A DNA stretch of 36,661 nucleotides from Verrucomicrobiota bacterium (GTDB taxonomy: Bacteria; Verrucomicrobiota; Verrucomicrobiia; Chthoniobacterales; JAFAMB01), in the NCBI GenBank assembly GCA_019243005.1, contig JAFAUY010000287.1, positions 1 to 36,661 on the forward strand, written 5' to 3'. Each line of letters begins with the position of its first letter. Within the stretch, counting starts at the first letter, position 1. Under the pieces are notes generated by a model, which was not told the origin of the DNA, did not search any database, and worked only from the letters and a program-made list of their open reading frames with translations. The position numbers and the translations under genes were made by a program. Positions 3,974 through 23,008 of this stretch are shown one piece after another.

Positions 3974-4002
3974 AGCCGCCACGCAAATCGCACGAAGGCC
4001 GT

Positions 4003-4686: not shown

Positions 4687-4828
4687 CCCTGATGCCACCC
4701 GGCTGCAGGTGAGTCAAGTTCGAATCGAAGAATCTTTACCTGAACCGTTTCCTAACGCTGTGTACGGTTGTTATCGGACCATGATTTGGCGCACGTGACC
4801 GTAACTCCCGTTACCACCGTGTTAGCTG

Positions 4829-4984
4829 TCACAGTCTTGCAAAAAGCAGGATTGAAACCGACAGGATAATCGTTATTAATGGTGCCAGCGCGAGGCAGTG
4901 AACGCTCTGGCGGGGTAGGTCTGGACGATCAACCGAACGCAGCATCCGACGGGTGAGGCTCAGCGAAAAAGGCGGTGATATCAT
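4829..4984 (-). CDS. Possible small tail-anchored membrane protein
   Basis: Small frame of 51 codons in the 375-base gap between the FN3 gene and the glycosyltransferase, on the same strand. The N-terminal half is polar and basic (SLTRRMLRSVDRPDLPRQ); the C-terminus is a hydrophobic helix (LITIILSVSILLFA) ending ARL. An AGGGG sits 7 bases before the ATG, and a full AGGAGG lies 16 bases before it, unusual in this SD-poor window. The frame can also extend upstream to 5017. No homologue is recognised, so the call rests on the RBS, the helix and the position. Confidence 0.33.
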   Translation of the reverse strand: MISPPFSLSLTRRMLRSVDRPDLPRQSVHCLALAPLITIILSVSILLFARL

Positions 4985-5061
4985 AGAACCGCCCCTGTTT
5001 CCTCCTAGATGACACAACCGTCAAAAATTATTAGATGCCACACGGCTGGCGAATCAGAAGC

Positions 5062-5808: not shown

Positions 5809-5943
5809 GAAAGAGGGTTTCTGGGTATCGCACACCGTTCACGGGGAAACTAACGTAAACGCTGCGAGGCTCCCCCAAACTTGGCAACCTGAAAAATTTC
5901 GAGCTCCGGCGTTTGGCCGACCGACGAAAAAGCCGGGGGAGGG

Positions 5944-7596: not shown

Positions 7597-7781
7597 GCGG
7601 TCAAAGTGATAACGGCGGGAATACGAAGCCGTCACAGCCGCTATAAAATCTCGCAATTCAAATTCTGAAATGGGGAGAAGCTTGCGCCGGACGCGGCGTA
7701 CCGGGAACGCGCGCAGCAGCCGGCAAACGCAAGAAACGTGGACGACCGCCAGTCACCCGTGCTAAAAGAGCGTGCACGCTC

Positions 7782-7874
7782 GTGATCGAAATTCTCGGAT
7801 CCACATGGTGGGTGGACCACCTTATGTTGGGGGTCGGTGTGGCCAGCTTTCTTTACATGCTGATCACCCGGTGA
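7782..7874 (+). CDS. Possible 30-residue membrane microprotein
   Basis: Short frame starting at GTG inside the otherwise empty 505-base stretch between the exosortase and ATP-grasp genes, on the opposite strand to both. The product has a short polar start (MIEILGSTWWVD) and a hydrophobic helix (HLMLGVGVASFLYMLITR). A perfect 14-bp palindrome, GAGCGTGCACGCTC, ends exactly at the base before the start codon. There is no Shine-Dalgarno and no homologue I can name. The single-helix pattern with a basic end is typical of bacterial membrane microproteins, but chance is not excluded. Confidence 0.27.
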   Translation: MIEILGSTWWVDHLMLGVGVASFLYMLITR

Positions 7875-7972
7875 GCCGGCCCGGGTGTAAGTTTTCCCCG
7901 GGCTCGGGACGCGTCCCCGTTTAACGCGTCGGCAATGCACGCGCGGTCGCGCGTTTTCGCGAACGGGGGACC

Positions 7973-9196
7973 TCAAAAGCCTCGTCTGACGGACAAATAG
8001 GGAATCAGGCCGAGCTCAACCATCGCAGGGAGCGGGTCCTCCGGACTGAATACCGATTCGACGCCGGCTCGCTGCAGCGAGCGAAGGTAAGCCCACAAAT
8101 CCTGCCGGCCCCGTAGGATTTCCAAGGCCGCCGCCGGCGCGTCCGTGATCAGGCGAACCCAGTTGACACCGGCACGGCCGCGGCAGGGTTCCAGCGTTTC
8201 TCCAAGCTGGTCGGCAAAGAGGAGGTAGGGAAAATCCACCCCGGCACCCGACCCGAGGCTGTGATAACCCCAGGTGCGCGCATTGACGTCGAGCAACTTG
8301 TACCGGCCGTCACGCGGATCCAGTTTGTATTCCAGTTCAACCAATCCGTAGTAGTTGATGGCGCGCAGGAAGCGTTCAGACAGCGTCTCGAGCAACGGGA
8401 GATCGATGGTCTCAACGTAGGTGCTGGCCCGTCCGAATTCGGGCGGGTGCTGCCGGCGCCGGCGCACGACCATACTCCCGATCGCCCGGCCTTCCTTGAA
8501 AAAGGCGCAATAGGCGAACTGCTGGCGGCCATCCCCAGGAATCAACTCCTGAATCATCACTTCTTCCGGGCCGACCTGGGCGGCCGCACGCCCGAAGCGT
8601 TCCCGCAGTTCGGCGTGGCTGTCGGCGCGCCAGGCCTTCGCTTTGGTTGCGTAGATGAAGTGCTCCTTGATGGCGGGCTTGACGGCGAACGGCGGGTCCG
8701 CGGTGATGTCCGGCAGGTCTTCCGGGCTCCGTGCATACCAGGTCGCCGGGGTTGCAAGCCCGAGTTCATTCGCCAGACGGTACGTATTCCGTTTATCCCA
8801 TACCCACTTCACCGTCTCCCAGTCCGGCGTCGGCACGCGAAAAAACTCGGCCAGCGCGGGCCGGTACCGTGAGAGCGCCGCGACGGTTTCATCTCGCGTC
8901 GGATAAATGACCCAGCCTTTCAGGTCCAGACGGTGACCCAGGTCCAGGATGGTATCGGCGGCCTGCTTTTGCTCGCGCAGGCTGGGAACGGCGACTGAGC
9001 GGGTGGCGTAGCGGGAAAAGCGGGCGATGGAAACCTCGTCGTCGATGACGCAGACGGGAACGTTATGCCGTCCGAGGCTGCGAACAATTCCCAGCCCCTG
9101 GTAGTCGCCCCCGATCACGAGGGCGCCGACCGGCTTTTTTGCAAGGTCCGGCACCGCGCCGCGCGTGACCGGGAGCTCTGGTTTGGCGGCAGGCAT
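7973..9196 (-). CDS. ATP-grasp carboxylate-amine ligase
   Basis: A 407-residue ATP-grasp enzyme, which would activate a carboxylate as an acyl phosphate and join it to an amine or thiol. A pre-ATP-grasp Rossmann-like region (ALVIGGDYQGLGIVRSLGRH, VCVIDDE) is followed by the ATP-binding lobe (FAVKPAIKEHF, EEVMIQELIPGDG) and the metal/ATP motif LVELEYKLDPRDGRYKLLDVNAR, in which the Glu and Asn ligands are present. Overall it resembles D-aspartate ligase-like or PylC-like proteins of surface and peptide pathways. ATG 9196 lies 5 bases after the stop of the flavin enzyme, so the two are surely cotranscribed and probably act on the same molecule. The substrates are unknown. Confidence 0.82.
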   Translation of the reverse strand: MPAAKPELPVTRGAVPDLAKKPVGALVIGGDYQGLGIVRSLGRHNVPVCVIDDEVSIARFSRYATRSVAVPSLREQKQAADTILDLGHRLDLKGWVIYPTRDETVAALSRYRPALAEFFRVPTPDWETVKWVWDKRNTYRLANELGLATPATWYARSPEDLPDITADPPFAVKPAIKEHFIYATKAKAWRADSHAELRERFGRAAAQVGPEEVMIQELIPGDGRQQFAYCAFFKEGRAIGSMVVRRRRQHPPEFGRASTYVETIDLPLLETLSERFLRAINYYGLVELEYKLDPRDGRYKLLDVNARTWGYHSLGSGAGVDFPYLLFADQLGETLEPCRGRAGVNWVRLITDAPAAALEILRGRQDLWAYLRSLQRAGVESVFSPEDPLPAMVELGLIPYLSVRRGF

Positions 9197-9201
9197 CAGC
9201 G

Positions 9202-10407
9202 TTATCGGTTTTTAGCGGGGCGGGGCGAGTTTCCGGCGATGCTCCGGACCAGTGCGCGCGAGGCGTAACGTGCGCCGGAGACAAACTGCATGAGCGGGCC
9301 GAAACTCCACGCGGCCGGGGCGCCAAGGATGTGCAGACCCGGGACCGAGGTTTCCAGCCCCTCTTTCAGCCGCGGGTAGCCGTTGAAGCGGTCGATCAAA
9401 CTGACGAGTCCCGGGGCGAGAAAATCGTATTTGGACAGATCGACCCGGTAGCCGGTGGCGAGCAGGATGTGATCGACGGTGCGCTCGCTGTGATCGTCCA
9501 GCTTGACCTTGACCTGTTCAGCGGCCGGTGTGACCTCCACCACCGAACGCCCGAGTTTGATCGGGGTATGATTTAGCCGGTCCACCAGCCAGCGAGCGCC
9601 GGCGGGCCGGACGGCGCGCTTTCTCAGCTTGTCCTGCAACCCGCGCGGCAACTGCCTGAGCAAATGAGGGCGGGCCAGGAGCTGGCTGAGAACGGCCGGC
9701 CCGACGTCGGTCGGCGCGTAGAGCAGGTTCCGGGTGAACGTTCCGAGCCGATGGTGCAGCGTCTTGGAGGCCCATCCGCCCAGCCAATGAATCCGAGGAG
9801 ACCGCGCGACGATTTCAACCCCGGCGCCTTCCTCGTGAAGCAAAGCTCCCGATTCCAAGGCGCTCTGCCCACCGCCGACGATGAGCACTCGTTTGCCGGC
9901 GAACTTCCGGAAGTCGCGGTGCTCTGAAGAGTGAGAAGTCAGGAAAGCGGGCAGGCTTCGAAAATCCGGCGGCCGCCAGGCAAACGCCCCGATGCCGGCC
10001 GCGATGACCACGCGCCGCGAAAGAACCGCGTCGCCGTCGGCGAGAGTGAGCCGAAACCCCTTAGGATGCGCTTCGAGGTGGGTGACGTTTCGACGGTCGA
10101 GGTCAGGCACCGCCTCGCGCTGGTACCAGAGGCCGTAGCCGACGAAGTGTTCGATCGGCACGGGCAGCGCGAATTTTGCGCCGTGCGCCGCCTGGTACGC
10201 TTCCAGCGTCAGTGCGCTGTCTGGATCCGCGATTTGCGTGGCGGTCCAGTTTGAACGGAGGAACATGCCGGCCGGCATGTTCTGATCCCAGAACGACATG
10301 GGCTGGCCAAATACCCGGACTTCCAAGCCCTTAATGGCGCGCAGATGCGCCGCCGCGGCAAGCCCATAAGGGCCTGCGCCGATGATCACTAAATCAAAGA
10401 TCGTCAT
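9202..10407 (-). CDS. NAD(P)/FAD-dependent monooxygenase-like oxidoreductase
   Basis: A 401-residue two-dinucleotide flavoprotein. The FAD-binding motif IIGAGPYGLAAAAHL opens the protein; an NAD(P)H-binding GGGQSALESGALL lies at about residues 172-185; ATGYRVDLSKY near residue 315 is the conserved ATG motif of class B and N-hydroxylating monooxygenases. Segments such as FLRSNWTATQI and LGAPAAWSFGP fit the lysine/ornithine N-hydroxylase and flavin monooxygenase clan. The likely reaction is NADPH-dependent oxygenation of an amine or similar group. It is followed after 5 bases by the ATP-grasp ligase and preceded by a deacetylase gene 115 bases upstream on the same strand. It could instead be a reductase without oxygenation; the class is safer than the reaction. 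Confidence 0.8.
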   Translation of the reverse strand: MTIFDLVIIGAGPYGLAAAAHLRAIKGLEVRVFGQPMSFWDQNMPAGMFLRSNWTATQIADPDSALTLEAYQAAHGAKFALPVPIEHFVGYGLWYQREAVPDLDRRNVTHLEAHPKGFRLTLADGDAVLSRRVVIAAGIGAFAWRPPDFRSLPAFLTSHSSEHRDFRKFAGKRVLIVGGGQSALESGALLHEEGAGVEIVARSPRIHWLGGWASKTLHHRLGTFTRNLLYAPTDVGPAVLSQLLARPHLLRQLPRGLQDKLRKRAVRPAGARWLVDRLNHTPIKLGRSVVEVTPAAEQVKVKLDDHSERTVDHILLATGYRVDLSKYDFLAPGLVSLIDRFNGYPRLKEGLETSVPGLHILGAPAAWSFGPLMQFVSGARYASRALVRSIAGNSPRPAKNR

Positions 10408-10522
10408 TTTTCAGCTGCTTCAACATCATTTCGGCGATATCTAACATACCTAACTAATCCGTCCGTGACTGGATGAAAGGTTTGCCGTAACCCTCGTCCA
10501 GAATCCTGCACGGGCGCAGCGA

Positions 10523-11908
10523 TCAACGAACCGCCAGCTCGGCAGAAACGGTCTCCATCTCGTAAACAAGTTTGTCCTCCACCCGAACCGCATAGGCGAC
10601 CCTCGCTCGCTCGCTCCCCTTGCCGACAATCGTCCAGGAGCCGCCTGACTGAACCAGGGTCATTTCACTCCGCAGCTTCCACCACGCTGCGATCTCGCCG
10701 GGTAAGGCGATGCAAATCTTTCTCCGGGCACGCAACCCGGAAAGGTAGTCAAGCAGTTCCGCGTATACCCTTCGCGCGGCTGACTCGATCACGTAATCCG
10801 GGTGAACGATGAAGCTGATAAGGCCGTGCTTCGCGCCGATCAGGGCGATCTGCTGTTTCCAGAGCCGGATCGAATAATCTTTGAGGATGTAAAATAGAGA
10901 GTAGTCCTGCGTCGTCGTTACCGGCAGTTCGAGCGTTCTGCCGATGAAAAAGGGGAAAACGGTGCAGCAACCGCCGCGCTGAGGATCCAGGTGCGCCACG
11001 TTCGGCATTGACATGTCATAGGAGAAATCAAGCGCGTCGCACCAGTCCGCGTTTCGATAGAGCACCGCCGAGCGGAAGCCCAGGGCGCCGTATTCCTGCG
11101 CGTAACGCTTGATCCGTTCGGCCCGGCGCAGAAACTCCGCGCGCTCGGCAAACAGGTGGCCATCGTGGTTCAGGTCATGCACATTTACCTCAAACCCTCG
11201 CTCCCGCATGTTGTCCAGAAACCTTCGCGAGAACGAGTAGCGCTCCTCCGGCACCAGCTGGAACGAGGATTTGATCCCGAATGAATCGTTCAAATCCATG
11301 AGTTGAGGGCAGAAATCCAGGCCCGCGTGCGTTTCTACGTCGTGCGTCAACATCGCACAACTGCGGTTGCCATCCGGCCAGAACCAGATAAACGGAAGGC
11401 GGTCGAGGTTCCGGGATTTCATTGCCAGCAGCAGGAGTTGCTCCAGGATGTTCTCGACGGTTCGATCCACCGGCCACGAGGGGAAAGGAATCTTTTCCCA
11501 GCCGCGCAAATATAAAGATTGCAGGTGCTTGCGCACCGCGACGGACATGAATGGGCGGGCCGAGTAATACAAACTGCGCACCAGGCCACGGGTGGTGCGC
11601 AGGCCGCTGCGCGATGCCGATTTGTCGGTATACCGCTCGAGACGCAAATTGTTCACCACTTGAACCGGGTCAAAAGGAAGTAAAACCGTTTCCGCATGCG
11701 TGCTTACGTGCTGATAAGCGTCCTGAAGATTTCTTGCCGGGAGGATCGGAGCGACCCCGGAAGAACACTGCCCGTAACACACGGTCCCGGAGCCGAACTG
11801 AAAATAACCCAGCGCCAGCGAAAGATCTCGCGTTACTGAAAAGCGGGCAAAATCGTCGGGGCAACGATAGTGGCCCGACAGGAGCGCCTCAGCGTTGGCC
11901 TGTTGCAT
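10523..11908 (-). CDS. Polysaccharide deacetylase-like protein, copy 1
   Basis: A 461-residue protein with a NodB/CE4-like core in its second half. The metal/catalytic motif reads LTHDVET (residues 187-193), followed by the His pair in VHDLNHDGH (residues 243-251), then LGFRSAVLYRN and FIVHPDYVIE. The first about 170 residues, including CYGQCSSG and a basic WPVDRTVENI region, belong to no domain I know. ATG 11908 is chosen because the same MQQANA start is conserved in the second copy (17836-19194), although a TTG one codon earlier is also open. The two copies share roughly four-fifths of residues by eye and differ mostly at residues 28-75. It probably removes acetyl groups from N-acetylated sugars of a surface glycan. 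Confidence 0.8.
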   Translation of the reverse strand: MQQANAEALLSGHYRCPDDFARFSVTRDLSLALGYFQFGSGTVCYGQCSSGVAPILPARNLQDAYQHVSTHAETVLLPFDPVQVVNNLRLERYTDKSASRSGLRTTRGLVRSLYYSARPFMSVAVRKHLQSLYLRGWEKIPFPSWPVDRTVENILEQLLLLAMKSRNLDRLPFIWFWPDGNRSCAMLTHDVETHAGLDFCPQLMDLNDSFGIKSSFQLVPEERYSFSRRFLDNMRERGFEVNVHDLNHDGHLFAERAEFLRRAERIKRYAQEYGALGFRSAVLYRNADWCDALDFSYDMSMPNVAHLDPQRGGCCTVFPFFIGRTLELPVTTTQDYSLFYILKDYSIRLWKQQIALIGAKHGLISFIVHPDYVIESAARRVYAELLDYLSGLRARRKICIALPGEIAAWWKLRSEMTLVQSGGSWTIVGKGSERARVAYAVRVEDKLVYEMETVSAELAVR

Positions 11909-12040
11909 CAAAATGTTTCCTACTAATCATCCCCCGTACCGAACCTTGCACCAGAACCGGTACAAACCGTTAGCCAATGCTGCCGACCGGCGAATTATCT
12001 CGCGACCATCACGATGGCGTAGACAGCAGGTGATTTGACC

Positions 12041-12103
12041 GGGCTGGTGATCTGGTTGTTGATAGACGCTGGCATTGCAGAAGGCAATATTCTTTTACGC
12101 GCC
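12041..12103. promoter_or_regulatory. Upstream element shared by both deacetylase copies (copy 1)
   Basis: About 63 bases here align at roughly 70 percent by eye with 19319-19384 upstream of the second deacetylase gene. The best-kept core is GCAGAAGGCAAT at 12077-12088 against GCAAAAGGCAAT at 19356-19367. The core lies about 165 bases before each ATG. It may be a shared promoter or operator, or simply a remnant of the duplication. Confidence 0.45.
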
Positions 12104-12289
12104 CAGTTATGCATGAGGGAAACACCAATAGCCACTTCAGAGATTGAGGTGAGCCGTCGCAAAATTTTATCAGCTACAGTAGATCCCGGCATTTTAGGTT
12201 CGGGCCGGCCTTGCCGGGAAAACGGGATCCGAGCGATCCGGCAGCTGCGATAACTGGCAATTGAGAAAAATCAGCCGCGCTTTCCCCGC

Positions 12290-12745
12290 TCAGATGCCGA
12301 CCATAAACCAATCGGCAGGGCGCGGCTGCTGTATCTCCACGGCGAGCGAAGCCAGCGTTTTTTGGTCGAGAACCTGGCTGATGGCGTCTCGAACCCCTTT
12401 CATGACCAGGCGAATCGGGCAGGCGGCTTCATCGGGGCACTCCGGACACGGACGATAACCGCTGCGGCTGACGCAGCTCACCGGGGCGAGGGGACCTTCC
12501 ACCAGCCGGATGATACGACCGATCGTAATTTGATCGGGCGGCTCCTGGAGCGTGTACCCGCCACCCTTGCCGCGCGTGCTCTTCAGGATCCCTTCATTTT
12601 TCAAGGTAAGCAGGATGCTCTCCAGAAATTTGCGCGAGATTTTTTCTGCCGTTGCGATTTCCGCGATGGGCGTGACGCCGTTTCCGTAACGCTGGGCAAG
12701 GTATAATGCCGCCCGAACCGCGTATTTGCCCTTTCGCGAAATCAT
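12290..12745 (-). CDS. Rrf2 family transcriptional regulator, probably Fe-S binding
   Basis: A 151-residue regulator of the Rrf2/IscR family. The winged helix-turn-helix occupies residues 1-75 (ISRKGKYAVRAALYLA, ISRKFLESILLTLK, STRGKGGGYTL). The wing is followed by a Cys-rich stretch with Cys91, Cys100, Cys103 and Cys109, close to the three Cys ligands of IscR/NsrR, so it could sense iron-sulfur status, oxygen or NO. ATG 12745 gives the canonical family N-terminus; ATG 12811, with AGGGAC 5 bases upstream, adds 22 residues and is equally well placed. The frame runs open to 13180 but the extra part shows no domain. Fe-S genes sufU and sufS are 15 kb away. A dyad in its own promoter region suggests autoregulation. 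Confidence 0.87.
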   Translation of the reverse strand: MISRKGKYAVRAALYLAQRYGNGVTPIAEIATAEKISRKFLESILLTLKNEGILKSTRGKGGGYTLQEPPDQITIGRIIRLVEGPLAPVSCVSRSGYRPCPECPDEAACPIRLVMKGVRDAISQVLDQKTLASLAVEIQQPRPADWFMVGI

Positions 12746-12811
12746 CGAGTAATCGCCGGCACGCTGCCGGGGAACGGTGGTCCGAGGAAACGGGGCGTAT
12801 TCATAGCGCAT

Positions 12812-13501
12812 TATAGTCCCTATGAAGTTGATAGGATTCAAGCAAAACCTCGGATTTGCCGGTAGGCGCGATTCGGCCCTCTCGGGGCGGGAATACGGCA
12901 AGGCCAACGGGCTCCGGCGGGCACGGCGCAACACGGCCGCCGCCGCGTCCTCGAACCCCGAACGCCAGCCGGCACCCGATTCCTCTCCCCGCCGTCGCGA
13001 GCCCCCAAACCTCCCGACGGGAGGCAGCCCGCTCAAAGTCGCGCCGCGCAGGTTCCCTGACCGGCGGCCCGCCTCTCCGGTGCGCTCTTTGGCATAAAGA
13101 AACGCCGTCTCGACTTTCAGCTCTAACAAATTTATGGAGTTTTCTGATACATTTTGGTCGATCTGAGAAACTCTGACCACTGACCCGCTCGTGACCGATA
13201 ATTCTTAACCCCCGTGCACCCGGTTGGTACTTAGTCCTGCGAAGCCGCGATGGTTTGCCGATGTATTTAGACCCCAGGCAGGCGAGCATATACAACGTTT
13301 GAGACGGGTCCTCCGTAGGCGTTTCCATGCCAACTTGTTGTCAGGTGTTTAGGCCTAAGTTAACCAATTGCGCCGGCCTAGGGAAACGACGTGGACGCCA
13401 GAGCGCCTTGCACCAAGGGCGGCCGGGTACGGCAGAACCGGTGTGGTCCTGTTTTGGGTCATCCACGTTCTACCCGCCAAGCAGCGCTTCAGGGTCCGAG
13501 C
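12812..13501. other. 690-base intergenic region between divergent Rrf2 and acyltransferase genes
   Basis: No convincing gene; frames here have odd Arg/Pro/Ala-rich composition typical of GC-rich noise. Two dyads are visible: CCTAT-N7-ATAGG at 12819-12835, next to the ATG 12811 of the Rrf2 gene, and an imperfect one, GAGTTTTCTGAT at 13137-13148 with ATCTGAGAAACTC at 13161-13173. Both could be operators serving the divergent promoters. The plus-strand operon start lies at 13502 with no clear -35/-10 pair. Confidence 0.35.
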
Positions 13502-14650
13502 ATGAGCATTACAAACGAGGCTGATCTAAAGTGGAAGAGCGGTACGGGTACGACGGTAATCACCCGGGTGACGGCAGATCTGGTCCCCGCCATCAGAGAT
13601 TTTAATTCACGCCTGGATGCCGCCGGTGCGCCGCGGGAGTTCCGGTTCCCGGAGTCTCATGTTTCCAGGTGGCTCCCCAAGGTGGACCAGCGACGGCTCT
13701 ATGAGGAATACTTTGCGTTGCTAGAGAGGGGTACCGTTCGCGGCTGTTACATTTTCAAACACCAGGATTTCTCATTTAACGGCGTGATCCGCCCGGTCGG
13801 CTTTTGGCATTGGTCGATATCCGAAGGGATGGTCAACAACAAGTACTTCTGGGTTGCTTCCCAGATGCTGGGGCCTGAATTGAAGGCTCAGCCCCTAATC
13901 TATGGCTTGGCGATGAGCGATCAGCTCACGCGGCTGTTGACGGGCCTCGGTTGGAATGTGTGCCGGGTGCCGTTCTACTTTAAGATGAATCGCCCCGGGC
14001 CTTGCCTGAGCGAAATCCGCGCGTTCCGAAAAACCAGGGTTCAACGGTTGATAGTGAACATCGCAGCTAGAACAGGAATCGGAGGACTTGCGCTCAGGGC
14101 TCTGCAGGGTGCCCGCGAGAGTCGCGCTCGGCGCGATGAACGGGCGGAGATCGTCGCGGACTTCTCCGCCTGGACTGACGACTTGTGGGACGCATGCAAA
14201 GGGCGGTACGCGATGATCGCCGTCCGGGACAGTGAAAACCTAAACATCTTGTACCCTGCAGGCAGCAGGTTCTTGTGCTGCAAAGTCATCCGCGGCAACG
14301 CCGTTCTGGGCTGGGCTGTGATTCTGGACACGCAGATGCACGACAACAAGCATTTCGGGAACCTGCGGGTGGGGTCGATCGTGGATTGTCTTGCATTACC
14401 GGAACAAGCGTTCGGGGTAATCCGAGCAGCCACGCAGGTACTCGAAGCTCGCGGGGTGGATGTGATTGTGAGTAACCAGTCCCACGCTGCCTGGGGCGCA
14501 GCCCTGCGACGCGCGGGATTTCTCCGGGGTCCTTCAAATCTCCCTTTTGCAGCGTCGCGCGAACTAACCAAACTGATTGAGCCGTTCCCATCCAAAATGG
14601 CACAAGTTCATTTGACCCGTGGGGATGGCGACGGTCCGATCCATCTTTAG
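13502..14650 (+). CDS. GNAT-like acyltransferase
   Basis: A 382-residue protein that looks like a two-domain GNAT-fold acyltransferase, by its PRDFN-type start (LVPAIRDFNSRLDAAG), the central QPLIYGLAMSDQLTRLL region and the C-terminal FGNLRVGSIVDCLALP and AWGAALRRAGF segments. No catalytic residue can be fixed by eye. ATG 13502 is selected because the upstream extension to 13391 is compositionally poor. It is 81 bases before the LLM oxidoreductase on the same strand and probably begins the operon. If the carrier protein below is loaded with an acyl or aminoacyl group, this enzyme is a good candidate for transferring it. Acyl donor and acceptor are unknown. Confidence 0.65.
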   Translation: MSITNEADLKWKSGTGTTVITRVTADLVPAIRDFNSRLDAAGAPREFRFPESHVSRWLPKVDQRRLYEEYFALLERGTVRGCYIFKHQDFSFNGVIRPVGFWHWSISEGMVNNKYFWVASQMLGPELKAQPLIYGLAMSDQLTRLLTGLGWNVCRVPFYFKMNRPGPCLSEIRAFRKTRVQRLIVNIAARTGIGGLALRALQGARESRARRDERAEIVADFSAWTDDLWDACKGRYAMIAVRDSENLNILYPAGSRFLCCKVIRGNAVLGWAVILDTQMHDNKHFGNLRVGSIVDCLALPEQAFGVIRAATQVLEARGVDVIVSNQSHAAWGAALRRAGFLRGPSNLPFAASRELTKLIEPFPSKMAQVHLTRGDGDGPIHL

Positions 14651-14706
14651 TCTATCTTTAACGAGGAGCGCGCCGCCTGCTGCGCAATCCGATTCAACCC
14701 TCAATA

Positions 14707-14732
14707 TCGAACATTTAAGGTCGAACATTTAA
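14707..14732 (+). repeat. Tandem 12-bp repeat at the LLM oxidoreductase start
   Basis: TCGAACATTTAA occurs at 14707-14718 and again at 14721-14732, so that the last A of the second copy is the first base of the ATG. The repeat takes the place where a ribosome-binding site would lie; only AAGG between the units could serve. A 14-base period of this kind may be a slippage product or a protein-binding site. Confidence 0.5.
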
Positions 14733-15772
14733 TGACCAACAACGGATCTTCAAAATCGATCGAACTGTTTTCCACCTGCCCGCAGTCCAGCGCGATTCAA
14801 GCCGACTCCTACGTGCGCAGGGTAGCCGACGTGGCGCGCTGGAGCGAGCAGTGCGGCTGCAAAGGTATTCTCGTCTATACGGATAACTCGCTGGTGGATG
14901 CCTGGCTCGTATCCCAGCTCATCATCCAAAACACGGAGCGGCTGTGCCCGCTGGTCGCCGTGCAGCCCGTCTACATGCATCCGTATTCCGTCGCCAAGAT
15001 GGTCGCCTCGTTCGGCCACCTGTACGGCCGGCGCATTTACCTGAACATGGTGGCGGGCGGCTTCAAAAATGACCTAGCCGCTCTCAACGATCTCACACCC
15101 CATGATAAGCGATATGCCCGCCTCGTCGAGTACACCACCATCATCAAGGAACTCCTGACGAGTCCGGCGCCCGTGACCTTTGAGGGTGAATTCTACAATG
15201 TAAACAAACTGAAAATGACGCCGTCGCTGGCGGCCGAACTCTTCCCCGGCATCTTCATTTCCGGGTCATCCGAGGCGGGCCTCGCGTCGGCCAAAGCCCT
15301 TAAGGCGACGGCCGTCAGGTATCCGAAGCCTGTCAAAGAATATGAAGGCGAGGCCCCGCCCGACGGGGTGGATTCCGGTGCCCGGGTGGGAATCATCGCC
15401 CGCAGCGCCGAAGCTGAGGCTTGGGAGATCGCCGAGCAGCGGTTTCCCGAAGACCGGAAAGGCCAGATCACTCACCAGTTGGCGATGAAAGCTTCGGATT
15501 CATTCTGGCATTACCGGTTATCCCAGATCGCGAAAGAGACCAGAACGGGCAGAAGTCCATATTGGTTGCGGCCTTTTGAGAGTTACAAGACTTTCTGTCC
15601 CTATTTGGTTGGAAGTTACGATCAGGTCGCCGAGGAACTGGCACGATACGTCAAGCTTGGATACAGGACCTTCATACTGGACATCCCGCCCGATCAAGAG
15701 GAACTGCAGCATATCGCAATTGTCTTTGATCTTGCCTCCCGGATGCAGACAGAGGAGGGGGCAAGTCGATGA
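14732..15772 (+). CDS. LLM class flavin-dependent oxidoreductase
   Basis: A 346-residue luciferase-like TIM-barrel oxidoreductase (SsuD/bacterial luciferase clan) that uses reduced FMN and oxygen. Visible family features: FSTCPQSS start, SEQCGCKGILVYTDNSLVDAW, the VAVQPVYMHPYSVAKMVASF barrel strand and the FMN-phosphate section (YLNMVAGGFKNDL). Near the end GSYDQVAEELARYVKLGYRTFILD is the typical LLM helix-strand. Its stop overlaps the adenylation gene start by ATGA, so translation is coupled. LLM enzymes beside adenylation and carrier proteins occur in natural-product clusters, where they hydroxylate a carrier-bound aminoacyl group; that role is inferred here. It could also act on a free small molecule. 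Confidence 0.88.
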   Translation: MTNNGSSKSIELFSTCPQSSAIQADSYVRRVADVARWSEQCGCKGILVYTDNSLVDAWLVSQLIIQNTERLCPLVAVQPVYMHPYSVAKMVASFGHLYGRRIYLNMVAGGFKNDLAALNDLTPHDKRYARLVEYTTIIKELLTSPAPVTFEGEFYNVNKLKMTPSLAAELFPGIFISGSSEAGLASAKALKATAVRYPKPVKEYEGEAPPDGVDSGARVGIIARSAEAEAWEIAEQRFPEDRKGQITHQLAMKASDSFWHYRLSQIAKETRTGRSPYWLRPFESYKTFCPYLVGSYDQVAEELARYVKLGYRTFILDIPPDQEELQHIAIVFDLASRMQTEEGASR

Positions 15773-17379
15773 CAGAGCCTGCCGCGTTCAGAAGCCTCAT
15801 TGACGGCTTTGTCCAATCCGTTAACCGCTTTCCTTTGAGGGAAGCCCTTGTCGTGGATGGCGAACGTCTTACCTACCTCACGCTGCAACGCCTCGCAGGT
15901 AAGATTGCGTCCACGATCCTGCAGCACGAGCAGGATGGGTTCCCTCTCGTGGGGCTCCTGGCGCATCGGAGCAAAACGGCCTATGCAGGTGTACTGGGCA
16001 TACTTGGCGCAGGGAAAGGATATGTCCCGCTGAATCCCAAATTCCCGATAGAGCGTACACGAAGGATGCTGGCTCTCTCCGGGTGTGGAATGCTGATCGC
16101 GGGAAGAGAGGGTTTTCGGCACTTGCCAGAGCTCTTGATGGATGCCGGCCGGCCTTTAACGGTGATCCTTCCGGACGCTTTCGACGCAGGTGATCTATCA
16201 TCAGACTTTCCTCAGCACCGATTCGTCTCATCGCAAAAGATGACCGGTGGTGACGCGTTTTCTTCCGGGATAACGGCTAACCCGGCCAGGATCGCTTACC
16301 TGCTGTTTACTTCAGGAAGTACCGGCCAACCAAAGGGCGTTCCTATCCCCCAATCAAACGTGCGCTCATACGTCCAGCATGTTTGCGATCGGTACGATGT
16401 GAACGAGACCGACCGTTTTTCGCAGGAGTTTGATCTCACGTTTGACTTGAGCGATCACGACATGTTCGTGTGTTGGGAGCGTGGCGCCTGCTTGTTCTCA
16501 GTGCCGGAAAAATCAGTTCTGGCCCCGGCAAAGTTTATCCGTGAACACCGGTTGACCATGTGGTTCTCGGTGCCTTCGGTGATCGGGCTTCTTGTACGAA
16601 TGAGATTGTTGTCGCCCGGCTGTTTTCCATCCCTACGATACAGCCTGTTTTGCGGAGAACCTCTGTCCGCCTCCTACGCCCAACGCTGGCAGGAAGCCGC
16701 CCCGAATTCGATTTTGGAAAACTTGTACGGGCCTACTGAGACAACGATCGCCATTTCTCATTATCGTTGGAACAAAAGCGGCTCTCTTGAGGCGGAATGT
16801 GTGAATGGGATTGTGCCCATCGGCTGGATCTTCGACGGGCAGGCGTGCAGGGTCATCGATGCCGACCGAAAAGCTGTTTCGGCCGGGGTTCCCGGAGAAC
16901 TGTGCCTGTGCGGCTCGCAAGTAACCACCGGCTACTGGAATGACCCTGCGAGAACTCAGGAGCAGTTTGTCCGGTTGCCGGGTGCCGGGGAGGACCTCTG
17001 GTACCGAACCGGGGACATGGTCCAGCAAAGTGCGGACGGTTGCCTGTACTATCTGGGCAGAATGGACCATCAAGTCAAAGTCCGCGGCTACCGGGTGGAG
17101 TTGCAAGAAATCGAGGCGGTGCTTCGAAAGGCGTGTGGCACCGAACAGGTCGTGGCGATCGCCTGGCCGGTTGAAAACGGCAGTGCGGACGGAATCGTTG
17201 CCTTTGTTTCCGGGGCCGGCGGTTTCGATCACGATCGGGTATTGGATTACTGTGGCAGAGTTCTGCCCGGGTATATGGTTCCAAGAAAGCTCTATTTGTG
17301 TGACGAATTTCCGCTCAATGCCAACGGCAAGATTGACCGTGCCAGGCTGGTCTGTATACTCACGGGCAGGGAGAAATGA
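15769..17379 (+). CDS. Stand-alone amino-acid adenylation enzyme (NRPS A domain/DltA-like)
   Basis: A 536-residue ANL-superfamily ligase that would adenylate a carboxylic acid and load it on a carrier protein. The core motifs are intact: A3 TSGSTGQPKG (181-190), A5 NLYGPTE (318-324), A7 YRTGD (412-416), A8 starting GRMDHQVKVRGYRVEL (430-445) and A10 NANGKIDR with catalytic Lys521. The substrate region has FDLTFDLSDHDMF (221-233) with Asp226, aligning to the Asp that binds the alpha-amino group in NRPS and DltA enzymes, so an amino acid is likely. There is no condensation or thioesterase domain. It overlaps both neighbours by ATGA. DltB and DltD partners are absent, which argues against a true dlt operon. 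The specificity is not predictable by eye. Confidence 0.9.
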   Translation: MTEPAAFRSLIDGFVQSVNRFPLREALVVDGERLTYLTLQRLAGKIASTILQHEQDGFPLVGLLAHRSKTAYAGVLGILGAGKGYVPLNPKFPIERTRRMLALSGCGMLIAGREGFRHLPELLMDAGRPLTVILPDAFDAGDLSSDFPQHRFVSSQKMTGGDAFSSGITANPARIAYLLFTSGSTGQPKGVPIPQSNVRSYVQHVCDRYDVNETDRFSQEFDLTFDLSDHDMFVCWERGACLFSVPEKSVLAPAKFIREHRLTMWFSVPSVIGLLVRMRLLSPGCFPSLRYSLFCGEPLSASYAQRWQEAAPNSILENLYGPTETTIAISHYRWNKSGSLEAECVNGIVPIGWIFDGQACRVIDADRKAVSAGVPGELCLCGSQVTTGYWNDPARTQEQFVRLPGAGEDLWYRTGDMVQQSADGCLYYLGRMDHQVKVRGYRVELQEIEAVLRKACGTEQVVAIAWPVENGSADGIVAFVSGAGGFDHDRVLDYCGRVLPGYMVPRKLYLCDEFPLNANGKIDRARLVCILTGREK

Positions 17380-17708
17380 AGCCGAAATTTGAACTTGAAA
17401 TCGTCGATCTGGCCGTCCGCTGGGTGAAACAAAACATGCAGACAAGTGGCAACCGTCATGTGGAGCTTACCGGGGACACGGACCTGATGGAAAGCGGGCT
17501 GCTAGATTCAGTCGGATTCGTTGAATTGATTGTGTTTATAGAAAGTCAAACGGGCTGTAATATCGACCTTACCGATGTCGATCCCAGCGAATTTACGACG
17601 ATGGATGGCCTGTGTAGGATCGCGTTGAGAAATTATCAAGCGCCCAAGACGATGCAACCAGCCGTTAACCCGACGGTTGAGACGTGCCCGCGGCTGGCCA
17701 ACACTTAG
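17376..17708 (+). CDS. Acyl/peptidyl carrier protein
   Basis: A 110-residue stand-alone carrier protein. The first about 85 residues form the four-helix PP-binding fold, with Ser45 in GLLDSVGFVEL as the expected 4'-phosphopantetheine site. The usual DSL motif is DSV here, a known variation. The remaining 25 residues (QAPKTMQPAVNP through LANT) are low-complexity and probably disordered. The start overlaps the adenylation gene by ATGA, which supports a dedicated loading pair like DltA/DltC or PltF/PltL. No phosphopantetheinyl transferase is in the window, so activation must use one elsewhere. Confidence 0.9.
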   Translation: MKPKFELEIVDLAVRWVKQNMQTSGNRHVELTGDTDLMESGLLDSVGFVELIVFIESQTGCNIDLTDVDPSEFTTMDGLCRIALRNYQAPKTMQPAVNPTVETCPRLANT

Positions 17709-17729
17709 GCACAAGGTTTTGACGACGTA

Positions 17730-17754
17730 GGCCCCTCGGGGCCGCCTCCGGCGG
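17730..17754. terminator. GC-rich double hairpin between convergent genes
   Basis: GGCCCCTCGGGGCC at 17730-17743 and CCGCCTCCGGCGG at 17742-17754 are adjacent inverted repeats 22 bases after the carrier-protein stop; the second deacetylase gene ends on the other strand at 17836. No T-run follows, so termination is only suggested by place. Confidence 0.35.
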
Positions 17755-17835
17755 ACGGCGCGTGGCATTCTCCGGAGGCCGGGTGGTGGCGGGTGAAAGG
17801 TCCGGCGCGGGCGCAAACCATCGCCACCGTCCCCA

Positions 17836-19194
17836 TCACGTCATCTCGTACACGAGCGTGTCGTTCACCCGAACCGCGTAGGCGACCCTCGCTCGCTCAC
17901 TCCCTTTTCCGGCGATCTGCCAGGAGCCTCCTGAAGCAACCAGTTTCATCTCGCTTCGCATCTTCCACCACGCCGCAATCTCACCGGGCAGGGCAGTGTA
18001 AATCTCGCCCTGGGCGCGCAACTCAGAGAGGTATTCCAGCAACTCGGTGTACACCCCGCGCGCGGTGTGCTCGATCACGTAGTCCGGGTGAATGATGAAG
18101 CTGATAAGGCCGTGTTTCTCCCGGATCAAAGCGATCTGCTGTTTCCAGAGGCGGATCGAGTAGTCCTTGAGGATGTGAAACAGGGAGTAGTCTTGTGTGG
18201 TAGTTACCGGCAGTTCGAGGGTATTCCCGATGAAAAAGGGGAACACGGTGCAACAGCCGCCACGCTGCGGATCCAGATGCGCTACGTTCGGCGTCGACAT
18301 ATCATAGCAAAAGCTAAGCGCATCGCACCAGTCGGCATTTCGATAAAGCACAGCTGAGCGGAAGCCCAGAGTGCCGTATTCCTGCGCGTAACGTTTTATC
18401 CGTTCGGCGCGGCGCAGAAACTCCGCGCGGTCGCTGAAAAGACGGCCATCGTGGTTCAAGTCATGGACATTGACTTCGAAGCCTCGAGCCCGGATATTTT
18501 CCAGAAACGTCGGTGAGAGCGCGTATCGTCCCTCAGGCACAAGTTGGAATGATGACTTGATTCCGAAAGAATCGTTCAAGTCCATGAGTTGCGGGCAGAA
18601 ATCCGCCCCCGCACGCGTTTCTACATCGTGCGTTAGCATCGCGCAGCTGCGGTTGCCGTCTGGCCAGAACCAGATGAACGGAAGGCGGTCGATGTTCCGG
18701 GCATCCATGCCCAGGATCAGGAGTTGCTCGAAGATGTTCTCGACGGTTCGATCCACCGGCCATGAGGGGAAAGGAATCCTTTCCCACCCACGCAGATACA
18801 AATTTTGAAGGTGCTTCCGTACGGCAACGGACATGAACGGGCGGACCGAGTAATACAGGCTTTGCACCACGTTGCGGGTGGCGCGCTTACCACTGCGCGA
18901 TGCCGTTTTAGCGGTGTACCGCTCGAGGCGCAGGTTGTTGACGACTTGAACCGGGTCGAAAGGAAGCAAAACCAGGCCGTCGTGTATGCGCACGTGCGGA
19001 CGAGCGTCGTGGATGGCTCCTGTCCGGAGAGACGCAGAGACGCCGGAGGAACACTGCCCGTAGCAAGTTATCCCGGGCCCGAACTGAAAATAATCCGGCA
19101 TTGGGGATAGATCCGGCATTACCGAAAAACTGGCAAAATCGTCGGGGCAGTGATAGTGGCCCGACAGGAGCGCCGTTGCGTTAGCCTGTTGCAT
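17836..19194 (-). CDS. Polysaccharide deacetylase-like protein, copy 2
   Basis: A 452-residue paralogue of the protein at 10523-11908, in the same strand orientation. The catalytic core is almost unchanged: LTHDVET, VHDLNHDGR (His to Arg at the last position), LGFRSAVLYRN and FIIHPDYVIE. It ends at VYEMT, nine residues shorter than copy 1. The two diverge most at residues 28-75, which may mark a different acceptor or partner. ATG 19194 is chosen because MQQANA starts both copies; the frame extends to 19359, but that part is not kept in copy 1. It converges on the adenylation operon, so it has its own promoter upstream of 19194. Confidence 0.8.
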   Translation of the reverse strand: MQQANATALLSGHYHCPDDFASFSVMPDLSPMPDYFQFGPGITCYGQCSSGVSASLRTGAIHDARPHVRIHDGLVLLPFDPVQVVNNLRLERYTAKTASRSGKRATRNVVQSLYYSVRPFMSVAVRKHLQNLYLRGWERIPFPSWPVDRTVENIFEQLLILGMDARNIDRLPFIWFWPDGNRSCAMLTHDVETRAGADFCPQLMDLNDSFGIKSSFQLVPEGRYALSPTFLENIRARGFEVNVHDLNHDGRLFSDRAEFLRRAERIKRYAQEYGTLGFRSAVLYRNADWCDALSFCYDMSTPNVAHLDPQRGGCCTVFPFFIGNTLELPVTTTQDYSLFHILKDYSIRLWKQQIALIREKHGLISFIIHPDYVIEHTARGVYTELLEYLSELRAQGEIYTALPGEIAAWWKMRSEMKLVASGGSWQIAGKGSERARVAYAVRVNDTLVYEMT

Positions 19195-19850
19195 CAGAAT
19201 GTTTACCTGGTCTCCCGGACGAAATTCTGCACCAGGTCCCATCCAAACCCTTGTTAAGCGCCGGCCGCCCAATGACGTCGCGACCACTCCAGCAGCATTA
19301 ACGGTCAAGAGGCTCGATCGACCTGGTAATTTGGTTGTGCATAAACATTGGTAGTGCAAAAGGCAATCTTTTTGTTGGACGCGGCCACGCTAGCTTTGGG
19401 AATCCCTTTGTTCTGGGATCCATATAAAACACGATTGTAGTTATAAATTCTAACGGCCCGGCGGGGTCAATGCGTTGCCTCCAAAGCTGGGCGGTTGGTA
19501 ATTCACAAATTTATAGTAAAAGCTGCCTGCAAGAAGAATCCGTAACCCGCTCTAAAATTGTTTCCCGGACCTGCCTCGGAAATCAGGAGGTCCGTGCAGT
19601 ATGCAGCTTGACTCGGGGATCGGATCCTGGATTTAATTGGCGCCAGGTTATCGAGTGCGTTCATACGTGCCAGAAGGGGGGCAGGTTGATAAGCGTGATG
19701 GATGGCCGCTCATAGTCTCCCCTCGGCCGGCGTGTGTTGATTTATGTGCATATAGCGAGGGAAGTTGCGCAAAGGGCGCCGGGATTGGCTCCGGTACCTC
19801 AAAAAGGTCAATGTGGGCCCACGCCAGGGTACGCAATCGATTGATACGTC
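19195..19850. other. 656-base intergenic region between divergent genes
   Basis: This stretch lies between deacetylase copy 2 (minus) and the FemAB-like gene (plus). Bases 19319-19384 match the region upstream of deacetylase copy 1. Around 19430-19460 there is an AT-rich section (TATAAAAC, TTATAAATTC) that is the most promoter-like spot. Small frames at 19470-19870 show no domain and no ribosome-binding site. No RNA gene was recognised. Confidence 0.35.
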
Positions 19851-20891
19851 ATGGATTTACAAGTAGTTGACCCGGTCCAGGACCATACCTGGGACTCGCT
19901 CGTGCTTTCGCACCCCAACTATCATTTTTTCCATAGCACTTGCTGGGCGAGAGTGCTTTGCAAGACTTACGGCCACAGGGCGGTCTACCTCCGTTGTTTC
20001 CAGCAAGGCGAACTTAAAGCGCTGGTTCCAATGATGGATGTACGCAGCTTTCTGACCGGATGCAGGGGAGTTTGCCTCCCGTTTACGGATTTTTGCAGTC
20101 CACTCATTTTCAGTGATCGTGATCGGGTCTGGCCGTCCGTAGTGGCTACCCTGACCCAAGTGGCTCGGGAGCGAAAATGGAAGTATTTTGAAATCCGTGG
20201 TGGAAGGGCGCTTGATCCCTCGACGAAGCCTGCGGCGGGGTACTATGGCCACAGGCTGGATTTGGGCGGCAGTACGGAAGAGCTTTTTGCCAGCCTGAAA
20301 AGTTCCGCTCGGCGGGCCGTTCGGAAGGCGGAGCGTAGCCGGTTGCGCGTTGAGGTGACCCGAACCCGGGACGCGCTTTTGGATTTTTATCGACTGCATG
20401 CGGCCACCCGGAGGCGCCACGGCGTTCCTCCCCAGTCGGTCGCCTTTTTTCTAAATATATACGACGAAATCATCCGGCAAAACCTGGGATTTGTAGCCGT
20501 TGCAAGCATGGCGGCGTGCCCGGTCGCCGCCGCAGTCTTTTTACATTTCGGCAAGAGAGCCGTTTACAAATTCGGCGCATCTGACCACAAATTTCAAGAG
20601 TTCCGGGGCAGCAACCTGGCCATGTGGGAAGGGATCCGGTTCCTGACGGAAAACGGGTTTGAAACGGTGCATTTTGGCAGAACCGCGCTGGAAAACGACG
20701 GGCTGAGACGGTTCAAGCAGACGTGGGGAGCCGAGGAGGACCGGATAGAGTACCTTCGATTTGGTCCGATAGCCGAAGCGAAGGCGAAGACCCAGGCCAC
20801 CACCTCAGGGGTTCACCGCAGCGTATTCGGCCGGTTACCCGTAAGTTTGAACTGCCTGGCCGGTACCCTCATTTATCCGCACCTGGATTAA
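19851..20891 (+). CDS. FemAB-like aminoacyltransferase / GNAT protein
   Basis: A 346-residue member of the FemAB/GNAT clan, close in layout to the FemAB proteins linked with exosortase/PEP-CTERM loci. The N-terminal half has FFHSTCWARVLCKTYGHRAVYL and LKALVPMMDV; the C-terminal half has the family's ARRAVRKAERSRL, LHAATRRRHGVPP and YKFGASDHKFQEFRGSNLAMWEGI (in part), with the end EFL-type helix FETVHFGRTALENDGLRRFKQ. Family members join amino acids or acyl groups to amino acceptors such as cell-wall peptides. ATG 19851 has no Shine-Dalgarno. The last 23 bases overlap, tail to tail, the formyltransferase on the other strand. It is a candidate transferase for the carrier-bound product; the substrate is unknown. 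Confidence 0.8.
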   Translation: MDLQVVDPVQDHTWDSLVLSHPNYHFFHSTCWARVLCKTYGHRAVYLRCFQQGELKALVPMMDVRSFLTGCRGVCLPFTDFCSPLIFSDRDRVWPSVVATLTQVARERKWKYFEIRGGRALDPSTKPAAGYYGHRLDLGGSTEELFASLKSSARRAVRKAERSRLRVEVTRTRDALLDFYRLHAATRRRHGVPPQSVAFFLNIYDEIIRQNLGFVAVASMAACPVAAAVFLHFGKRAVYKFGASDHKFQEFRGSNLAMWEGIRFLTENGFETVHFGRTALENDGLRRFKQTWGAEEDRIEYLRFGPIAEAKAKTQATTSGVHRSVFGRLPVSLNCLAGTLIYPHLD

Positions 20892-21831
20892 GCCTGGTCC
20901 CGGGCGTCAGCACGGCTTGCGCGTTGAGCGAGCGGCCATCAATGATCAGCCAGCGCACCGACACCCATTCGTCAGCGGCCGCGACCAGGACTCCGGACTC
21001 GTCTGACGTGCCGACCGTTCCGGGTGTGCTGTCAGAGCGCCGAAAGGTACGGACCGCTTTTGCAACGGCGATTTCGCGTCCTTTGAAGGAAACCTTTGGA
21101 TGGCCCCACGGTGAGCGATACGGCGCATAGTCACAGGCGCGAACAAAATTTACAACCTCGCGGGCCGGCCGGTTCCAAGACAACCAGCCTTCCTCCGGGA
21201 CTTCCTTGCCGAAGTAGCGCCTCTTCGTCAGGTCCTGCTGCAACCTGGGAATAGCGTCCGGATCCGCGGACGCCGTCTCGAGGAGTTGGTGAATGAGCGC
21301 CAGGCCTGCTCGCACGCATTTTTGAGTCAGCAGCACCGGGGTATCGGTCTCCTCGATCGGGAACGTCGACCTATAGGCAATGTCGCCGGCGTCAATTTCC
21401 GGCACCATCCAGTGGACCGTCACCCCATGGGTCGGTTCTCCGAGGTAAATCGCCCAACTTACCGCATTCAGGCCGGCATAGTGGGGGAGCGGACCGGGAT
21501 GCAGGTTGAATGCACCGATCCGTGCAGCCTGCAATACGGCACCCGGGATGATGTACAGGGAATGCACGTTCAGAATGATGTCCACTTGTGCAGACCTGAG
21601 GGCATCCGCAAATTGCGGGTCTTTGACCCGCCGGGCCGGCCAGACGGTGCATCCAAGCTCTTTGGCGGCAGCCGTAATGGCTGCCGTCCCGGGTTTACCA
21701 GGTGTGACGGACGTCATTACGGCCATGATCTCGCAGTGGCTTTGCGCCAATGCCCGCAACGCCCGCAAACCAGCCGATTCTTCACCGATCAGCAGCACCT
21801 TCGGCCGGGTCCGGCCAGATTCCGTCTCCAT
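20869..21831 (-). CDS. Formyltransferase (methionyl-tRNA formyltransferase-like)
   Basis: A 320-residue protein of the N10-formyltetrahydrofolate-dependent transferase family. The N-terminal Rossmann domain (KVLLIGEESAGLRALRAL) leads to the catalytic motif FNLHPGPLPHYAGLN with Asn109 and His111, and Asp147 in EIDAGDI is spaced 36 residues from the His, as in Fmt. The C-terminal half (EEGWLSWNRPAREVVNFVRAC, YRSPWGHPKVSF) resembles the Fmt/ArnA C-terminal domain. It may be an accessory enzyme that formylates an amino sugar or amino acid, as ArnA, VioF and FdtF do, rather than the housekeeping initiator-tRNA enzyme; no def gene is next to it. The start ATG 21831 has AAAGAG upstream. The 3' end overlaps the FemAB-like gene. 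Confidence 0.87.
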   Translation of the reverse strand: METESGRTRPKVLLIGEESAGLRALRALAQSHCEIMAVMTSVTPGKPGTAAITAAAKELGCTVWPARRVKDPQFADALRSAQVDIILNVHSLYIIPGAVLQAARIGAFNLHPGPLPHYAGLNAVSWAIYLGEPTHGVTVHWMVPEIDAGDIAYRSTFPIEETDTPVLLTQKCVRAGLALIHQLLETASADPDAIPRLQQDLTKRRYFGKEVPEEGWLSWNRPAREVVNFVRACDYAPYRSPWGHPKVSFKGREIAVAKAVRTFRRSDSTPGTVGTSDESGVLVAAADEWVSVRWLIIDGRSLNAQAVLTPGTRLNPGADK

Positions 21832-22074
21832 AGCGGCTCTTTACGGTTACACCATTTTCCCGTCAGCCAACAGGTGCCTCATCCTTTCGACCATCCCTGA
21901 CGCATGCCCGTTTCGGGCGCGAGTTGATCAGCCCGGCCGCCTGAAAGCAGCCGGCAGATTCGTTCATCCTCCGACGTTTCTACTAGACGCCGGAGTGGTA
22001 CCGTCAAGGGAGCACGTTGCGCTCTGCCCGATGAGGCGATTGCGATGTTTCCACCCGGGCTTCTCACGCGCCCG

Positions 22075-22866
22075 CTATAGCCGTTCTGCGTACCTGAGCG
22101 CGGCGCGGTAACCTTGTAAAATTTGCTTGAGGCTGAAAACGATCGCCGAGATCTGGTTTTCACCGGGTTGCTGCCGGGGGGTGCAAAGGCTCAGGCAGAA
22201 CGGGCGTGGCCGCAGGTGGCCCGTATTAAAAATCGACGCCGGTTCGAAGCCGGACGGCAGCCAGAGCCGGATCGGTTCCGATGCCAGCGGCACGAACCGC
22301 TGCGCCAATTCGACGGCCGGCCATAGCACCTCCGTGGCGATCAACCGGCTGCAGGTCCGTATCTGGAACCCTGAGATCGGCTGATCGCCGCGGATAAAGA
22401 CAACGGCGTCAAACTCGTTCCGTTCAAGCTCCTGTTCAAAAAAGCGGACCGCGGGATCGATCGATCCACGCCAGAAATCATTGGTAAACGCCCGGCCGTC
22501 GCCGTCCCAAGGGTGCGGGTTGGCCTGTGGATAGCCGAACAGCGCATAGTCCTGGGCCAGCAGAGACGCCAGATCGAGTTCGATGAGGAGTTTGGCCAGC
22601 GCCGCGGTCGCCACGGTATCGCCGGCGCTCAGGCCGGCGATCAGCGCCAGGCGAATCGGAAGGTCCCGGCCTCGCGGACCGATCAGGACAAAGCTCGGGA
22701 TCACTTTCCCGCCGGCGTGAAAGCTCCGCCACCGCGCCAGGCCGGGTGAACGGTCAGCGAGGTTGTTCAGTGGGGCTAACGCGTTTTCATCCAATTCAAG
22801 CGCGGGCGGCGGCGTACAGGGCAAAGCGGAGGCAAGTCGAGGCGGCATGAGCATTGGCCTTGGCAT
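22075..22866 (-). CDS. M14 carboxypeptidase-like protein lacking zinc ligands
   Basis: A 263-residue protein with the outline of a small M14/succinylglutamate-desuccinylase-type carboxypeptidase. RLALIAGLSAGDTVATAALAKLL takes the place of the usual GGVHGDEPAG-type strand, GYPQANPHPWDGDGRAFTNDFWRGS takes that of the NPxGxxxxxRxNxxGxDLNRxFW motif, and FIRGDQPISGF that of the LHADD strand. Thus the HxxE pair and the last His ligand are all missing, so a zinc peptidase activity is unlikely. ATG 22866 opens the frame; ATG 22854 or 22848 would also work. It is 243 bases upstream of the formyltransferase on the same strand. Family assignment is by motif geometry only and should be treated as tentative. 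Confidence 0.58.
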   Translation of the reverse strand: MPRPMLMPPRLASALPCTPPPALELDENALAPLNNLADRSPGLARWRSFHAGGKVIPSFVLIGPRGRDLPIRLALIAGLSAGDTVATAALAKLLIELDLASLLAQDYALFGYPQANPHPWDGDGRAFTNDFWRGSIDPAVRFFEQELERNEFDAVVFIRGDQPISGFQIRTCSRLIATEVLWPAVELAQRFVPLASEPIRLWLPSGFEPASIFNTGHLRPRPFCLSLCTPRQQPGENQISAIVFSLKQILQGYRAALRYAERL

Positions 22867-23008
22867 GACGTTGAGGTTGGAGGCGCAGGGATCAGCGATG
22901 GCTGGTAACGGGCGGAAGCATAGGCGGGGACCCGTTTAATGTCTACTTTTTTGATAGAGTTTTGAGGTCCCTGAGCCGCCCGTCCGGTTCTTGCCCGGTG
23001 ACCACGCC

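Follow-up and report, generated by a model that had tools for sequence, protein, structure and literature searches.

Two diverged NodB/CE4-fold deacetylase genes on either side of an adenylation operon in a Verrucomicrobiota bacterium look like separately kept relatives within a larger variable block

The window analyzed here, the whole 36,661-nt stretch of contig JAFAUY010000287.1 from an uncultured soil bacterium of the Verrucomicrobiota, carries two related genes, deacA and deacB, that lie in the same orientation on either side of an operon for amino-acid adenylation. The evidence presented below makes it probable, with some room for doubt, that they encode two anciently diverged and separately maintained deacetylases of the NodB/CE4 fold, within a 14-kb block that decorates an extracellular polysaccharide or surface glycan, and that the direct repeat they form is the leftover of a duplication or of a second acquisition and not a working switch. 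Homology, age, constraint, fold, intact motifs, a recurring gene cassette and the absence of the block from a congener are directly supported; everything beyond a deacetylase fold we infer. The genes and the repeat are as follows.

10523..11908, minus strand: deacA, divergent NodB/CE4-fold deacetylase of 461 amino acids (motifs THDVE 188-192, HDLNHDG 244-250, GFR 277-279, HPDY 369-372)
17836..19194, minus strand: deacB, paralogue of deacA, 452 amino acids, identical motif set, stop codon 9 residues earlier
10556..12105, minus strand: repeat copy 1 (blastn), most of deacA and ~195 bp upstream
17842..19387, minus strand: repeat copy 2 (blastn), most of deacB and ~195 bp upstream

The blastn alignment of the two repeat copies covers the deacetylase gene except its last codons and is identical in 1226 of 1554 columns (79%, E-value 0.0). 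A repeat search of the window returned one direct repeat pair of 1.55 kb with a copy-to-copy spacing of 7,286 bp, in agreement with a preliminary description of this DNA, which had placed two genes of shared orientation, with most residues in common, in a direct repeat of roughly 1.5 kb about 7.3 kb apart. The proteins are identical at 367 of 452 positions (81.2%) and the codon-aligned DNA at 80.8%. Identity between the proteins is 52% at residues 28-75, the stretch already reported as variable, and 86% in the catalytic region (174-416), which is conserved as described but is similar rather than near-identical. The resemblance also continues past the ATG, previously put at some 190 bases: ~195 bp of upstream DNA are 65% identical, with a local score of 56 where shuffles reached at most 26, and this similarity was not found in the upstream DNA of three relatives. 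Since the upstream frame of copy A contains stops, the stretch is non-coding in that copy, and an N-terminal coding extension was ruled out as its source. No third deacetylase copy was detected in the window's genome (3.78 Mb, 469 contigs, estimated 86% complete). The preliminary description was a correct observation, but its headline interpretation, a phase-variable or unstable island, is unlikely.

Neither protein reached a Pfam or NCBIfam family at cut-off, and a PDB sequence search with deacA returned only two thioredoxin matches (E 0.1). The AlphaFold model of deacA, built from 44 sequences with a mean predicted local distance difference test score (pLDDT) of 89.5, matches NodB/CE4 deacetylases, among them 3rxz (Z 22.3 over 230 residues; Foldseek E 6e-10), HP0310 (3qbu, Z 21.7), ArnD (8t0j, 19.1) and WbmS (3hft, 15.4). 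Both copies and all 42 relatives have D190, E192, H248, R279 and H369; H244 is present in both copies and in 32 relatives. We take D190/E192, H244/H248, R279 and H369-P370 to be the catalytic aspartate (base) and the metal ligands of the NodB/CE4 family. The catalytic-domain fold and the D190/E192, H244/H248, R279, H369 pattern are common to the window copies and the four matched deacetylases, whereas the copies score below the Pfam cut-off, carry an extra N-terminal region of ~150-170 residues, and belong to a family in which the first motif-2 histidine is replaced by Q in 10 of 42 relatives. Of the 106 columns with at least 90% conservation among the 42 relatives, copy A deviates at three and copy B at four, never within the motifs, and differences between A and B concentrate on family-variable columns (p 7e-18). 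Judged from their sequences, purifying selection acts on both genes, and neither has lost a catalytic motif. The two are divergent NodB/CE4-fold proteins with a predicted deacetylase activity and probably trim sugars of the outer slime coat. The second reading offered in the preliminary description, two deacetylases in one pathway, survives to the extent that both copies are intact and constrained.

The copies differ by a nonsynonymous divergence (dN) of 0.115 and a synonymous divergence (dS) of 0.73 (NG86) or 0.80 (YN00), with an overall dN/dS of ~0.16. As a yardstick, nine window genes were compared with their counterparts in a congener (G010), seven on its contig C77 and two on C133. The dS ranged over 0.43-0.68 (median 0.57) among the C77 genes; the C133 genes gave 1.11 and 1.23. 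This places the deacA/deacB value of 0.73 above seven and below two of the nine. By seven of the nine genes compared, the split between deacA and deacB is older, in terms of synonymous change, than the split between the congeners.

Each copy has neighbors that recur with the family elsewhere, and the genes concerned, together with a further enzyme gene, are these.

9202..10407, minus strand: FAD-dependent oxidoreductase, a conserved partner immediately downstream of deacA
7973..9196, minus strand: ligase-like gene of ATP-grasp type, a conserved partner that follows the oxidoreductase (PF15632 below cut-off)
19851..20891, plus strand: FemAB/GNAT-type transferase, divergent from deacB
20869..21831, minus strand: formyltransferase-type enzyme

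One scan of named genomes yielded 53 deacetylase loci, patchily spread, mostly in Acidobacteriota and with single cases in other phyla. Among the 39 loci with at least 3.5 kb of downstream sequence, the oxidoreductase lies directly downstream of the deacetylase in 11, the ATP-grasp gene in 13 and both in 10; a FemAB-type homologue is directly upstream in 23 of the 49 other loci with at least 1.5 kb upstream. In the window, deacA retains the oxidoreductase and ATP-grasp partners, and deacB adjoins the FemAB gene divergently. The cassette stands in the same order in Bradyrhizobium sp. Gha (L005:10001-14179), at 73%, 84% and 86% identity to deacA, the oxidoreductase and the ATP-grasp gene, and is a likely inter-phylum transfer; 1 of 265 genomes of that genus, Gha itself, carries it. 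The Gha cassette sits inside a polysaccharide gene cluster. A perfect 22-bp palindrome was also observed at window 10261-10282, within the start of the oxidoreductase gene.

Some deacetylase match was present in 32 of 213 genomes of the window's order, near full length only in the window's genome and one other (G009), the rest being partial. Of 387 genomes sampled evenly from the phylum, the window's own was the single one with a match at E 1e-60; G009 was evidently missing from that sample. Copy number was counted in the 50 genomes holding named loci, with 3 of the 53 loci left out: nine had more than one match at E 1e-20, and in two of these (G214, G255) the second match is near full length but on another contig, in one case with an internal stop. 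No second copy within the locus was found in the other retrieved loci of the set, L056 being one gene in two pieces. There was no deacetylase match among 72,556 plasmids, and within the literature searched no paper was found on the deacetylase family, the cassette or the isolate.

As far as the sequences indicate, the pair consists of two anciently diverged paralogues, or of xenologues. Separate acquisition, in which deacA would have traveled with the oxidoreductase and ATP-grasp genes in a lineage that also reached Bradyrhizobium while deacB arrived independently, is possible if somewhat unlikely. In a protein tree of 53 rows copy A groups with Bradyrhizobium, apart from B (support 99/75), and nucleotide trees agree, with a bootstrap of 63% on the full gene and of 63% and 52% on the two gene halves; A matches Bradyrhizobium at 142 nucleotide sites and B at 74. 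The dS to Bradyrhizobium sp. Gha is 0.80 for deacA, 0.75 for the oxidoreductase and 0.64 for the ATP-grasp gene, and 1.27 for deacB. A topology test, however, did not reject an A+B clade (approximately unbiased, AU, p 0.40), nor B+Bradyrhizobium (p 0.39), sites polarized by two outgroups give A+B the highest counts (56 and 46, with 37 and 38 for A+Bradyrhizobium, 16 and 21 for B+Bradyrhizobium), and the 195 bp upstream are common to A and B only.

It is unlikely that the copies diverged in specificity through the stretch at residues 28-75. Its low identity and a dN/dS of ~0.58, against ~0.08 in 174-416, would suit such a change, but this is the least conserved stretch family-wide (majority residue 44%) and lies outside the catalytic domain; as it is variable across the whole family, drift explains the difference between A and B there. 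The proposal that one copy is redundant and decaying, with relaxed constraint on deacB, seems very doubtful: the branch of B is longer (0.13 versus 0.079 for A) and B has more unique nucleotide changes with Bradyrhizobium as outgroup (142 versus 74), yet amino-acid changes number 28 against 17 (p 0.14), the open reading frame and all motifs of deacB are intact, and the overall dN/dS stays at ~0.16.

The interval between the deacetylases, and the block that contains all of these genes, comprise the following features.

7891..22087, no strand: block of 14.2 kb that the congener lacks, with 135 bp at the matching place
12290..12742, minus strand: Rrf2-family regulator, divergent from the operon
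13511..14650, plus strand: operon gene 1, probable tandem-GNAT N-acyl/aminoacyltransferase (low-confidence model)
14732..15772, plus strand: operon gene 2, luciferase-like flavin monooxygenase
15769..17379, plus strand: operon gene 3, amino-acid adenylating ligase (TIGR01733 over cut-off)
17376..17708, plus strand: operon gene 4, phosphopantetheine carrier protein (PF00550)

In the congener, matches to window 7781-7890 and 22088-22962 stand 135 bp apart and the intervening 14.2 kb are absent; neither the deacetylase nor operon gene 1 has a match anywhere in G010, which holds partial oxidoreductase matches (64-73%) on its contig C84. Because the congener is without the whole of 7.9-22.1 kb, the unit of gain or loss is larger than the repeat bracket, and the earlier view of the bracket as the deletion unit is replaced by this larger block. 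The block is present in one congener and absent from the other, as a genomic island would be, but no tRNA was found at its ends and the only word they share is of 8 nt, so that neither a tRNA site nor flanking repeats mark it. Its GC content is 58.5%, against 60.4% outside.

The longest exact run between the copies is 30 nt, and seven exact blocks reach 20 nt; in 2,000 shuffles of the mismatches the mean longest run was 26.6 nt and 25% gave at least 30 nt. According to the available text of PMC8918686, bacterial recombination needs an identical segment (minimal efficient processing segment, MEPS) of 30 bp or less, and its rate drops exponentially with divergence. Given one 30-nt run and this effect of divergence, a crossover could occur at a single site but should be very rare. 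No gene conversion or mosaic was detected between the copies, as windowed site patterns and half-gene trees against Bradyrhizobium and outgroups revealed no switch, and neither a hybrid nor a deleted allele was seen, with no pair of close copies in the 50 genomes and no A/B mosaic against the same references. Pfam assigns no recombinase to the 11 genes predicted in 7.9-22.1 kb, three of which (deacA, deacB and operon gene 1) have no Pfam match over cut-off. At 79% identity with a longest block of 30 nt, the copies are not the long near-identical repeats of a switch. Nucleotide identity of 79-81% does stay above the ~75% under which the preliminary description would have abandoned recombination, although the relatives with one hybrid copy that it anticipated were not found. 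That the repeat is an active recombination substrate, at which a crossover deletes the Rrf2 gene and the operon and leaves a hybrid deacetylase, agrees with the shared orientation, the 79% identity over 1554 columns with its one 30-nt block and the absence of the region from the congener, but is extremely improbable in view of a longest run no longer than shuffling yields, a recombination rate that falls exponentially with divergence, copies that predate the congener split by seven of nine genes and have not been homogenized, and a congener gap whose ends lie outside the repeats. By sequence, the picture is of two relatives that are stable and maintained separately, not of a genetic on/off switch.

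Within the operon, the ligase scores 333.7 bits on TIGR01733 (cut-off 317.4) and the carrier protein 23.4 bits on PF00550 (cut-off 20.8). The ligase matches 4oxi (E 1e-92), presumably AlmE, and DltA-type enzymes, and stays below the DltA equivalog cut-off with 247.1 of 559.85 bits. Operon gene 1 has no Pfam match, and its structure model resembles a tandem GNAT; as this model is poor (pLDDT 57.5), the label is tentative. Among the operon genes none was recognized as being of the AlmG or DltB type. As in AlmEFG and DltABCD, an amino-acid adenylating ligase and a carrier protein would feed a transferase, and in AlmEFG, by the available text of PMC12930378, the ligase loads glycine onto the carrier for the transferase. 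The window operon differs from both systems in a transferase that looks like a tandem GNAT and in the insertion of the luciferase-like monooxygenase, and because the transferase appears different the operon was not filed under AlmEFG. Promoter and terminator scans were uninformative (4 and 11 sites, versus 4.8 and 11.0 in shuffles).

The operon also occurs in a genome of the same family (G005) that has no deacetylase match, with its first three genes 71-80% identical (dS 0.71, 0.71, 0.77). In that genome (L115:4884-10523) the ligase gene has an in-frame gap of ~134 codons and there are two separate oxidoreductase fragments, possibly signs of decay, the operon being otherwise intact. In two distant relatives, G029 and G733 (L116:9089-11180, L118:1498-3542), a homologue of operon gene 1 directly follows an open reading frame with weak NodB-like motifs, for which hhalign gives a NodB probability of 29% and which has no Pfam or NCBIfam match; in G733 the next open reading frame upstream is FkbH-like by eye.

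Several observations weigh against placing both deacetylases and the operon in one surface-decorating block. The PF01522 cut-off of 23.1 bits is not reached, copy A having no match and copy B 12.5 bits at a lax threshold, and the proteins are therefore termed NodB/CE4 fold and not members of PF01522; this gathering score is a curators' threshold, not a biochemical feature, and the distant relative L045 scores exactly 23.1 bits. deacB and the operon are convergent and hence not one transcript. None of the 53 deacetylase loci has a homologue of operon gene 1 or 2; with the linkage seen in no other locus, a shared pathway rests on one contig. The G005 genome is an estimated 84% complete and its contig ends just past the carrier gene, so a deacetylase there could have been missed.

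In the favored reading, each deacetylase would remove an N-acyl group from an amino sugar and free its amine, and the ligase would load an amino acid onto the carrier protein. The flavin monooxygenase may then oxidize the carrier-bound amino acid and the tandem-GNAT protein may transfer it to the freed amine, the FemAB- and formyltransferase-type enzymes being further candidates for re-acylation. Removal of the acyl group and a fresh N-acylation of an exopolysaccharide would be the simplest order of events for these enzymes. A more specific proposal, decidedly unlikely at present, is that the block encodes an undescribed "deacetylate, then re-acylate" exopolysaccharide pathway that attaches an oxidized amino acid, with the deacetylase copies serving different sugars or decorations. 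As in the exopolysaccharide loci linked to the PEP-CTERM/EpsH exosortase, genes for an exosortase, an export protein and a deacetylase share one neighborhood in the window, and according to the available text of PMC1569441 the families that correlate with EpsH include polysaccharide deacetylases (PF01522); unlike in those loci, the window's exosortase is not part of the 14.2-kb block, and its counterpart in the congener sits on another contig. In the comparison of window 283-7431 with L160, the congener has the exosortase gene inverted relative to its neighbors and not on the contig that bears the collinear block, and the two genes compared on this exosortase contig have a dS about twice as high (1.11, 1.23). 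Elsewhere in the window, 25766-26026 matches dozens of places in G003 at ~80% and 33640-33810 dozens of places in G010, two dispersed repeat families.

For the biology of this bacterium, a weak account of a phase-variable island is replaced by a dated one, in which most of the comparison genes place the split of the paralogues before that of the congeners, and the surrounding block is the real variable unit. Since the genome record of Bradyrhizobium sp. Gha is not marked as a metagenome-assembled genome, the homologous cassette might be studied outside the uncultured source, and the block as a whole points to a surface-decoration pathway that could be tested.

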